This document shows positions 8,414-11,470 of a stretch of DNA of 64,000 bases, one piece after another. The stretch is taken from assembly GCF_004342445.1 (NCBI RefSeq), contig NZ_SLWW01000002.1, positions 248,001-312,000 of the forward strand. The letters are read 5' to 3'. The translations under genes and the position numbers were made by a program. The first letter of the stretch is position 1. Each line of letters begins with the position of its first letter. The notes under the pieces are model-generated. The model was not told where the DNA came from. It did no database searches and saw only the letters and a program-made list of their open reading frames with translations. Origin of the DNA: Rhodovulum euryhalinum. Lineage in GTDB: Bacteria; Pseudomonadota; Alphaproteobacteria; Rhodobacterales; Rhodobacteraceae.

Positions 8414-9598
8414 ATGACCGCGGCGCAGGTGGAAATCGAGGTCTTGTCGTCGCTGGCGCAGATCGCGCCCGGGGACTGGGATGCCTGCGCCTGCCCCGAG
8501 GCCACGGGCGGCGGTCGGCCCGACGATCCGTTCACCACGCATCGGTTCCTGAAGGCGCTGGAGGACAGCGGGTCGGTCGGCCCGGGCACCGGCTGGCATC
8601 CTCAGTACCTGGTCGCCCGGCAAGGCGGCGCGGTCATCGCCGTCGCGCCGCTTTACGCCAAGACCCACAGCCAGGGCGAATACGTCTTCGACCACAACTG
8701 GGCCCATGCCTATGAACGGGCGGGCGGGCGGTATTACCCCAAGCTGCAGATCGCGGTGCCCTTCACGCCCGCCACGGGCCGGCGGTTCCTGGTGCGTCCC
8801 GGGGCCGAAGACACGGGGATGGCGGCGCTGGTGCAGGGCGTGGTCAAGCTGGCCGCGCAGAACCGCATTTCCTCGGTCCATGTCACGTTCTGCACCGGGG
8901 CCGAGGCCGGGGCGGGGGTTGCCATGGGGCTGATGCACCGCGTCACCCAGCAATTCCACTGGGAAAACCACGGCTATGCCGATTTCGACGGCTTTCTCGA
9001 GTCGCTGTCTTCGCGCAAGCGCAAGAACATCCGCAAGGAACGCGCCACCGCGCAGGGATTCGGCGGCACGATCACGGCCTATGCGGGCGATGCGATCCGG
9101 GCCGAGCACTGGGATGCGTTCTGGCGGTTCTACCAGGATACCGGCGCGCGGAAATGGGGCACGCCCTACCTGACGCGGGCGTTCTTCGACCGGGCGCACG
9201 AGACGTTGCGGGGCGACATGCTGCTGGTGCTGGCCGAACGCGACGGGCGGGCGGTGGCGGGTGCGCTGAACTTCATCGGGCGGTCGCGGCTTTACGGCCG
9301 CTACTGGGGCTGCATCGAGGACCATCCCTGCCTGCATTTCGAACTGTGCTACTATCAGGCCATCGACCACGCCATCGCCCGGGGTCTCGACACCGTCGAG
9401 GCCGGGGCGCAGGGCGCGCACAAGCTGGCCCGCGGCTACCTGCCGGTGGCGACCCATTCGCTGCACTGGATCGCCGATCCGGGGCTGCGGGCCGCGGTCG
9501 GCCAGTTCCTGCGCGCCGAGCGCGACGCCGTCGAGGAAGAGATCGAGGTGCTGACCGACTATGGTCCGTTCAGGAAAACCGTGACGGAGGAGACATGA
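8414..9598 (+). CDS. GNAT/FemAB-like acyltransferase (DUF482 family)
   Basis: 394 aa protein of the COG3146 type, a GNAT-fold family found widely in Proteobacteria and described loosely as peptidoglycan-biosynthesis related. A strong ribosome site, GGGGAGCAGGG, precedes the ATG. Recognisable stretches include WDACACPE near the start, [13 protein letters not shown] at about residue 200 and [20 protein letters not shown] in the last third. It follows the phosphodiesterase gene by 46 bp and overlaps the pterin dehydratase start by 4 bp. The substrate is unknown. Confidence 0.85.
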
Positions 9599-9888
9599 CC
9601 GACAAGCTGACCGAGGCCCAGCGCGCGGCCGACCTGGCCCCCCTTCTGGCGGCGGGCTGGCGCATGGTCGAGGGCCGCGATGCCATCGCCCGGACCTACA
9701 ATTTCGCGAATTTCGTCGAGGCCTTCGGCTTCATGGCCCGCGCCGCGCTGTGGGCCGAAAAGCTGAACCACCACCCCGAATGGTTCAACGTCTACAAGAC
9801 CGTCGAGGTCACGCTGTCGACCCATGACGCGGGCGGGCTGACGATTCTGGACGTGGAACTGGCCCGCCGGATGGACGCGCTGGCCTGA
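9595..9888 (+). CDS. phhB: Pterin-4a-carbinolamine dehydratase
   Basis: 97 aa. It matches the PCD active-site signature exactly: EKLNHHP, then Tyr after five residues, His nine residues further on, and a later Asp (VELARR region). The enzyme dehydrates 4a-hydroxytetrahydropterin to recycle the cofactor of aromatic amino acid hydroxylases and may serve other pterin roles. It is the last gene of the RidA/GDPD/GNAT set, coupled to the preceding gene by an ATGA overlap. No phenylalanine hydroxylase gene is seen nearby. Confidence 0.92.
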
Positions 9889-9918
9889 GGGGGATGCGGA
9901 GGAGTGGGTAGGTTTGAG

Positions 9919-9943
9919 CCCATGTCGACAGATGCCACATGGG
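9919..9943. repeat. Inverted repeat at left edge of the AT-rich island
   Basis: CCCATGT (9919-9925) and ACATGGG (9937-9943) form a perfect 7-bp inverted repeat with an 11-base spacer, 30 bp after the phhB stop. It could be a terminator stem without a U-tract, a protein site or a boundary of the inserted segment. No matching copy was seen on the right side of the island. Confidence 0.35.
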
Positions 9944-10045
9944 TCGCGAACGACCGGTTTGCCGCAGACGTGAGAACCGGCGGGGTCATATTTGCAGAGA
10001 TCCCTTGTCACAAACATTTCCAAGCCAAGTGCCCGCTAATTATTA

Positions 10046-10735
10046 TCATTCCACCTCATCTGACTTAATCAGCTCTGGATCGACGTGGTCGGTTAGCATC
10101 TTGCAAAGGACGACATCGACCGCCAAGAGCAGGCCGTCAGCGGAGTCTATGTCTTTGAGAACTTCTGCGTTGAGACAGAAGTCTTGTCTCGGGTTGTGAA
10201 CTAATTCGTGGCGAAGAGAAAAAATCCTCTTTAGGCTATTCAGGTATTCCGGCTCAAAGCAGACTGCGGTCTCTGGCCGATCCTTTATTCGTATTTTTAG
10301 GCCAATAGCTTCTCCCCAAACACTCTTGCCCAGAAATTTTGAAAAGACCCTATCTATCTTGTCTGTGTTTTGAAACGACGCATCGCTCGAAACCAGTTCA
10401 AGAGGATGAATCTGCCGCTTATAGATGTCGATCAAGTCTTCGATGTCATACTTTATGTTGTGGATGTTCTTTAGTTTGGGGATAAAAAAATCTGGGGCGC
10501 ACTGCCTAAAAATAGCGTCAAGCATGTCCCTGAAATAGACTTCGACATGCGTCACGAACGTAATGACGACACTTCGCTCCAGAAGCTTAGAATGTGTGCT
10601 CGCTGTTGTATTCTCGAGCAAATCCTTTCCTGCCTCTTTGCACTGGTCGACCGCATCTCGAAGGTTTCGATAGGGACGCGAGTGCCTAAGCGCTCGTGTC
10701 TCGCGATTTGAAAGAACTTCATCAAAATCCGGCAC
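10046..10735 (-). CDS. HEPN-like domain protein, probable ribonuclease-type, horizontally acquired
   Basis: 229 aa, starting at a GTG with AGGAG six bases upstream. All-alpha in character and similar in layout to the MAE_28990/RiboL-PSP class of HEPN proteins. A helix with FVTHVEVYFRDMLDAI occurs at about residues 60-75, and the C-terminal helix carries RHELVH (Arg175-x4-His180), the R-x4-6-H motif that forms the RNase active site in HEPN toxins and defence proteins. Base composition is unlike its neighbours: 24 of 60 bases are G or C at 10441-10500, with AT-rich codons throughout. No partner antitoxin, nucleotidyltransferase or integrase gene adjoins it. Family assignment is by motif and layout only. 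Confidence 0.7.
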   Translation of the reverse strand: MPDFDEVLSNRETRALRHSRPYRNLRDAVDQCKEAGKDLLENTTASTHSKLLERSVVITFVTHVEVYFRDMLDAIFRQCAPDFFIPKLKNIHNIKYDIEDLIDIYKRQIHPLELVSSDASFQNTDKIDRVFSKFLGKSVWGEAIGLKIRIKDRPETAVCFEPEYLNSLKRIFSLRHELVHNPRQDFCLNAEVLKDIDSADGLLLAVDVVLCKMLTDHVDPELIKSDEVE

Positions 10736-10981
10736 GCAACGCTCCTGTTAGACGTTAATATGATATTCTCTCCAATTGGTCTTGTATGCAAGTAGCAAGA
10801 ACTTGGACGAGGCGCGGACATCTCGACTTGGCAAGGTGGTGTCGTGCCAGCCATGTGAGCGGCCATTGGTGCCAGAACCATGAACGGCAGCAAAGTCCCG
10901 CAAATCGCCCCCCCCACCCGTCCCGCCCGACGCCTGATCTCGCGCCGGGCAGGCAGGCCGGTTGACCTGCGGGGGGTGGCG

Positions 10982-11470
10982 TCAGATCGCCTCGAGCATC
11001 GCTTCGCCCGCCGACACGCCACATTCGCCGGGGCTTTCTTCCAGGTTCAGCACCTTGACCACCCCGTCCTCGACCAGCATCGCATAGCGTTTGGACCGCG
11101 ACACCAGGCCCACCGGCAGCGCGGTGAAATCCAGGCCGATCGCCTTGGTAAAGGCGCCGTCGGGGTCGGACAGCATGGTGATCCCGGCGGCGGTGGCGCC
11201 GGTGGCCTCGCCCCAGGCCTTCATCACGAAGGGGTCGTTGACGGCGACGCAGATCACCTCGTCCACGCCCTTGGCGGTCAGCTTGTCCATCACCCGCACG
11301 AAGCTGGGCACGTGCGCCGAGTGGCAGGTGGGGGTAAAGGCGCCGGGCACGGCAAAGATCACGACCTTGCGGCCCTTGACCCTGTCGGACAGCGGCACCT
11401 CTTGTGGCCCCTCGGCGCCGAGCCGGATGAAGGTGGCCTCGGGCAGGCGGTCGCCGGTGGAAATCGTCAT
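10982..11470 (-). CDS. Peroxiredoxin (Prx5/AhpE-like)
   Basis: 162 aa. VPGAFTPTCH contains the peroxidatic cysteine (Cys49) in the Pxxx(T/S)xxC setting. FVRVMDKLTAKGVDEVICVAVND is the usual Prx5 helix and strand, and a further cysteine in SPGECGVS near the C-terminus could resolve the sulfenic acid. The enzyme reduces peroxides in the cytoplasm with thioredoxin or glutaredoxin as donor. The ATG at 11470 follows AAGAGGAGGGAC. It is divergent, across 81 bp, from a flavoprotein reductase gene. Confidence 0.94.
   Translation of the reverse strand: MTISTGDRLPEATFIRLGAEGPQEVPLSDRVKGRKVVIFAVPGAFTPTCHSAHVPSFVRVMDKLTAKGVDEVICVAVNDPFVMKAWGEATGATAAGITMLSDPDGAFTKAIGLDFTALPVGLVSRSKRYAMLVEDGVVKVLNLEESPGECGVSAGEAMLEAI

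Follow-up and report, generated by a model that had tools for sequence, protein, structure and literature searches.

The gene at positions 10046-10735 (minus strand, GTG start, 229 codons) of the window, the 64,000-nucleotide stretch of Rhodovulum euryhalinum DNA analysed here, has been read as a horizontally acquired, partner-free ribonuclease of the HEPN_RiboL-PSP family (Pfam PF18735) that would serve as a one-gene abortive-infection effector; we put the probability of this reading, in which both the RNase activity and the role in defence are predicted, at roughly 0.55. As a lone gene that was acquired alone and has been kept functional, in a family whose members often form one half of defence-type operons, it is best read as a self-sufficient effector; the branch of the family to which it belongs seems to travel without a partner gene, and so is probably a self-contained one-gene defence. 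The first-pass annotation had offered three possibilities (a stand-alone defence RNase, half of a split system, or a protein using a partner elsewhere). The lone insert, the purifying selection and the lack of a GmrSD_N gene anywhere in the genome favour the first of these, as a prediction.

Composition and family of the gene

The gene is single-copy in its genome and has a GC content of 0.47 (GC3 0.53), against 0.67-0.72 (GC3 0.74-0.91) for six neighbouring genes and 0.68 for the surroundings. This is 7.5 SD below the mean of the 690-base windows outside its region, and all 15 of the lowest-GC 690-base windows in the 64 kb overlap it. The much lower G+C originally reported is thus borne out, with 24 G/C among the 60 bases at 10441-10500 on exact recount, and no stretch of the window is richer in A+T than the one holding the gene. 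Eight further copies make up a branch of nine, seven of them full length. They come from Arenibacterium (L035), Palleronia (L036), an alphaproteobacterial MAG (L037), Salinihabitans (L038), a Natronohydrobacter MAG (L039), a Rhodobacteraceae MAG in which the copy lies on two contigs (L040 and L041), genome G073 (L003/L083), and an 8.2-kb plasmid of Acinetobacter lwoffii (L042; 44% identity over 85%). At all seven full-length loci the HEPN gene is more AT-rich than its flanks (GC 0.25-0.47 vs 0.35-0.70), so that its composition reflects the lineage of the gene as much as recent transfer.

By profile match and motif, 10046-10735 encodes a HEPN protein of the PF18735 family. The match to PF18735 (33.6 bits, curated cut-off 28.4, E 4.7e-8) is the sole Pfam hit listed up to E 10; of the HEPN families named in the first-pass annotation, RiboL-PSP was therefore found and MAE_28990 was not. 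NCBIfam and PHROGs gave weak hits only (E 0.05 and 0.011). Within the branch, the curated cut-off is exceeded by the window, L036, L039 and L083 proteins and just missed by that of L038 (28.0 vs 28.4); the L035 locus reached 23 bits in a DNA search with PF18735, and the L042 protein had no match up to E 0.01. A second profile was built from 27 other PF18735 proteins of the same bacterial family (30 loci were listed, from which L075 and L076, members of this branch, and L082, below the cut-off, were dropped, matches without a locus being left out). It finds all seven full-length branch proteins, with E 6.5e-9 for the window and 3.9e-5 for the plasmid copy in a database of 7 sequences with filters off. 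The R-x4-H string is present in 27/27 of these other members, and in the profile alignment Arg175 (codon 10211-10213, minus strand) and His180 (10196-10198, minus strand), both in frame, fall on the conserved R-x4-H of the family; its occurrence in the window protein is therefore not a matter of chance, and the originally proposed HEPN identity with this motif is upheld. It is also kept in all seven full-length branch proteins, including the 39%-identical plasmid copy. When the profile of the branch was compared with one of eight PF18735 members, no significant match emerged (probability 2.2%, the aligned columns excluding the motif).

Structure prediction, by way of a homologue, is compatible with a HEPN fold. 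The window's own protein modelled poorly (pLDDT 40.8, from 8 rows of which 3 are fragments), whereas the best of five AlphaFold models of the L038 protein, 66% identical to it, reached pLDDT 68.7 (range 45.6 to 68.7) and pTM 0.74, with L038 placed first above 5 full-length rows. In this model Arg174-His179 lie at the end of a helix (161-179), and a region of about 80 residues separates the second and third long helices. The top 13 entries in a comparison with the PDB comprise 12 HEPN or HEPN-MNT toxin-antitoxin entries plus YutE, with Z 7.8-9.3; a Z near 9 can be reached by helical bundles through a common arrangement, the confidence of the model is modest, and the comparison leaves room for families missing from its list. 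Foldseek returned no match to the L038 model at E<=0.001, nor did a viral structure library, in whose list one entry is a HEPN-domain protein at E 2.9, and among solved structures there was no sequence match up to E 1.

Extent and acquisition of the insert

Similarity to the nearest relatives (L037, L040 and L041) runs from about 9911 to about 10888 (minus strand), which sets the foreign stretch at about 1 kb, close to the roughly 1.1 kb first estimated, and its foreign origin is supported. To the left lies the host gene phhB (9595-9888, plus strand), convergent with the host peroxiredoxin gene on the right (10982-11470, minus strand); both names are those of the first-pass annotation. The stretch consists of a leader region (10736-10888, minus strand), alike by blastn in L037 and L040 only, the HEPN gene, and a 3' flank (9911-10045, minus strand) that is alike in L041. 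No codon-position signal is seen in either flank. Substitutions in the leader are spread over the three positions (12/14/14 vs L037, 7/10/9 vs L040), as are those in the 3' flank (9/10/6 vs L041), while the HEPN gene itself gives 15/6/48 vs L037 and 14/6/36 vs L040. An indel sets the L040 leader apart from those of the window and L037, and a 61-residue similarity between the translated leaders of the window and L037 has been read as homologous noncoding DNA. An out-of-frame ORF of 109 codons (10552-10881, minus strand) runs from the leader into the HEPN gene. Stops break this frame in L037, L040, L036, L003, L038 and L039; L035 alone keeps it open almost throughout, and the leader of L035 is dissimilar. 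A protein partner encoded within the island is thus not supported, as had been surmised, and no MNT nucleotidyltransferase or other second gene lies there, the neighbours being phhB and the peroxiredoxin gene.

Near the ends of the island, which are known roughly, the only inverted pair is one of 12 nt with 83% identity; no convincing transposon with terminal repeats was found there or at the L083 insert. An integron cassette was also considered, from words near the HEPN start codon that resemble what we take to be the attC pattern.

The distribution of the gene is patchy. It is present in 1/16 genomes of the genus (that of the window), in 4/295 of a family sample and, by profile search, in 4/390 of the order (one a distant 32.5-bit match), the window's own genome being counted in each; the figures for the class and phylum are 2/385, the second match being weak (E 6.8e-4), and 1/398. 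The interval from phhB to the peroxiredoxin gene was compared in 11 other genomes of the genus and holds no HEPN gene in any of them: it measures 0-148 bases in nine, 1597 bases in G299 and 921 bases in G309, the content of the last two being different. The 921-base interval of G309 (L046) carries an apparent transposase remnant, recognised by eye. In G297, G300, G301 and G302 the DNA matches to the two host genes are not adjacent. A second such case is found in the genus of G073, where a gap of 27-40 bases in G1317 and G1318 corresponds to one of about 0.9 kb in G073, holding the HEPN gene only. The gaps of the window and of G073 have thus each gained this gene and no other, as two single-gene inserts of about 0.9-1.0 kb in different genera, and horizontal acquisition of the HEPN gene is supported. 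The gap occupied in G073 contains in G1319 a different AT-rich insert of about 0.74 kb (L095; G1319:C2:971300-972850); lying between a stop codon and a terminator-like hairpin, this gap is possibly a slot for single-gene inserts.

A phage origin was also considered, and no match to support it was found: phage records held no branch member, and viral contigs gave no match with the window, L042, L038, L061 and L086 proteins, in searches by short patterns that reach close relatives only. Plasmid records yielded one match, and none with the L086 protein as query. The copy on the Acinetobacter plasmid lies, with a PemK/MazF gene and a hypothetical gene, between two oppositely oriented Xer-site-like sequences. 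By a pattern that we take to be that of Xer sites, four such sequences in alternating orientation occur at L042:2384-7651, against 0.03 expected.

Partner genes in the wider family and competing explanations

At 17 of the 27 other PF18735 loci, a same-strand ORF of 348-431 codons and similar GC stops no more than about 45 bases from the HEPN start. Fifteen of these encode GmrSD_N proteins (PF03235), one a TIR protein and one a ParA-type ATPase; among the remaining ten loci, a contig end truncates four, three carry ORFs of host-like GC upstream, and L057, L078 and L080 have no such ORF. The TIR-domain gene (L065:1950-3038) occupies the GmrSD_N place upstream of its RiboL-PSP HEPN gene, and the C-terminal part of its product matches PD-T7-3 (PADLOC, E 2.3e-7); the ATPase gene (L069:2112-3173) is likewise tightly upstream. 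No GmrSD_N-like neighbour was seen at any of the seven full-length branch loci, so the solitary state looks old rather than the product of fresh decay. A mechanical count of nearby same-strand ORFs does register some at the window, L036, L038 and L039: those at the window are frames over host genes, that at L039 is a methyltransferase, L038 has an 80-codon ORF just before the HEPN gene, and L036 a 450-codon frame after it.

Control by a protein encoded elsewhere in the genome has been considered as well, and three of the hosts (G073, G282 and G1261) do carry one PF03235 match each on a contig other than that of the HEPN gene. However, a genome-wide search, covering five of the seven full-length hosts (those of L036 and L042 were left out), found no PF03235 match in the window's genome, which is 99.96% complete, or in G128, and a gene arriving alone in distant hosts would need such a partner in every one of them; a distant partner is accordingly considered unlikely.

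The GmrSD_N genes at 15 of the 27 loci, with the finding that all five of the GmrSD_N partners scanned with PADLOC match both NsnA and PD-T4-2_A, also raise the prospect that the window gene is the orphaned effector of a PD-T4-2-like two-gene system, drifting since the loss of part A. Two of the nine branch copies do look interrupted by insertion sequences. In the Rhodobacteraceae MAG the HEPN gene (L040:8421-8545 and L041:1-118) is split by an IS66-type element with similar terminal repeats at its ends and an 8-base target duplication, the two contig ends matching IS66-family transposase or transposase DNA about 2.4 kb apart in one Sulfitobacter plasmid record. In L037 (8505-8617) the HEPN frame enters IS5-family transposase-like sequence (matched in one plasmid record) before the R-x4-H, one side being seen. 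The chance of two in nine would be 0.003 at an assumed 1% per gene and 0.07 at 5%, both cases being metagenome assemblies; a cost of carrying the gene and a relaxed need for it would look alike in such hits. Against drift, dN/dS between the window gene and L037, L040 and L041 is 0.09, 0.14 and 0.19 (silent sites being saturated in pairs further apart), the protein being under purifying selection; the motif has persisted in every full-length copy out to the divergent plasmid one, and none of the seven full-length loci shows a GmrSD_N-like gene alongside. Orphaning thus seems an improbable account of the present gene. The suggestion of half of a split system fits as possible ancestry, but not otherwise, the usual GmrSD_N partner being absent from the whole genome.

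The leader has also been considered as the source of an antitoxin RNA, in a type III-like pair of the kind described for AbiF: it is about 150 nt long and contains one imperfect direct repeat (20 nt, 70%), and the RNA that neutralises AbiF of C. difficile starts, in the available text of that report (PMC12373285), 168 nt upstream of the gene. Yet there is no Rfam match up to E 1, leader and 3' flank both fold about as their shuffles do (z 0.97 and 1.06 for the leader, -0.46 and -0.68 for the flank), and the leader, shared by blastn with L037 and L040 alone, has diverged at about double the rate of the gene (0.27-0.32 vs 0.13-0.14) with no codon pattern. We regard an RNA antitoxin as quite unlikely, though one of a kind not yet described could be missed by Rfam and folding alike.

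The genes around the branch copies, mostly named by eye, are for the most part ordinary ones and do not form defence islands. The G073 copy adjoins a monomeric isocitrate dehydrogenase and the L035 copy a radical-SAM protein (our own reading except where confirmed by Pfam), and a methyltransferase gene stands alongside that of L039. Two copies have a mobile gene only a few kb away: L035 a phage-type integrase, L038 a Y2 transposase. When the flanking frames of ten loci were compared all against all, none of the genes adjoining the HEPN gene proved to be shared; the similarities found were the noncoding leader of the window, L037 and L040, and a protein encoded 6.7 kb away in L083, with similar proteins at a distance of 5.3 kb in L036 and 6.8 kb in L037. 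A tree of these divergent proteins (FastTree, midpoint-rooted) gives the branch a support of 0.997, with L078 and L080 as its sisters (0.903). The latter two also have no GmrSD_N-like gene beside them. L080 has as neighbours SduA (Shedu), a type III-type methylase, a ResIII protein and a MobA/MobL relaxase, and L078, which has a 138-codon ORF 113 bases upstream of its HEPN gene, lies near DruA and an ATPase matching MzaB. A compact island at L099 comprises a MobA/MobL relaxase, SduA, a RiboL-PSP HEPN, a resolvase-like gene (by eye) and type III-type R-M genes. A role outside defence, such as RNA processing or binding, would suit the ordinary surroundings and the lack of branch members in phages and viral contigs, but is doubtful in view of the patchy presence in genus and family, the plasmid copy with its PemK/MazF neighbour and nearby Xer-like sites, and the position of both sister copies near defence genes.

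Proposed action and comparison with known systems

As a self-sufficient effector, the protein would be produced as a dimer in low and harmless amounts, kept inactive by its own extra region, the approximately 80 residues that lie between long helices two and three. A phage product or the state of infection would lift this self-inhibition; R175-H180 of the two subunits would form a single RNase site at the dimer cleft, and the active dimer would cut host and phage RNA, so that growth stops. We infer the dimer, its RNase activity, self-inhibition and trigger, the defence role and the partner-free action from family and context. A more tentative proposal, which we hold to be possible but somewhat less likely than not to be correct, is that the whole branch unites sensing and self-restraint within a single protein and spreads, one gene at a time, into intergenic gaps, at a cost visible as the insertion-sequence hits. 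If so, a direct comparison of related proteins with and without a partner could reveal how a HEPN RNase is silenced and switched on, and lone effectors outside the models of the defence catalogues could sit in ordinary gene gaps, away from defence islands. No solitary RiboL-PSP HEPN was among the literature matches listed, though one may still be in print.

The protein resembles the Ribo L-PSP-HEPN family described by Anantharaman et al., 2013 (PMC3710099) in its profile match and in having the R-x4-H in place; the table of that paper, as far as available, names endoRNase L-PSP as a fusion partner and ParB as an operon partner, and the gene analysed here shows neither arrangement. PF18735 is also given for PD-T4-2 in the accessible table of a review (PMC10952713), and PD-T4-2, according to the available text of Vassallo et al., 2022 (PMC9519451), guards its native strain against T4. 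In the same bacterial family, relatives combine a PF18735 HEPN and a partner that matches PD-T4-2_A and NsnA, whereas the window gene has no part A beside it or in its genome, and no PADLOC model fits it. PADLOC matched none of its families to the window protein and gave two weak matches only (E 0.003 and 0.01) for six other branch proteins; it is also without a match for the HEPNs of two loci that do possess part A, so that a non-match is a weak test of PD-T4-2/Nsn membership.

The HepT/MntA (HEPN-MNT) pairs provide the closest solved folds to the L038 model, but the listed HepT chains have about 124-152 residues, compared with 229 and an insert in the window protein, and the island has no second gene. 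AbiF and AbiD1 have been described as distantly related HEPNs; of an antitoxin RNA like that of AbiF there is no sign at the window gene by Rfam or folding. Tha, a HEPN RNase of S. aureus prophages, differs, in the available text of its description (PMC11087260), in its length of 301 aa, its prophage location and its separate inhibitor gene ith (Ith). By the same account, growth was not slowed by expressing Tha alone, and a phage tail protein acts as its trigger (PMC11087260); an R-x4-H HEPN tolerated alone and set off by a phage protein, a likeness by description, is the working model adopted here for the window gene.
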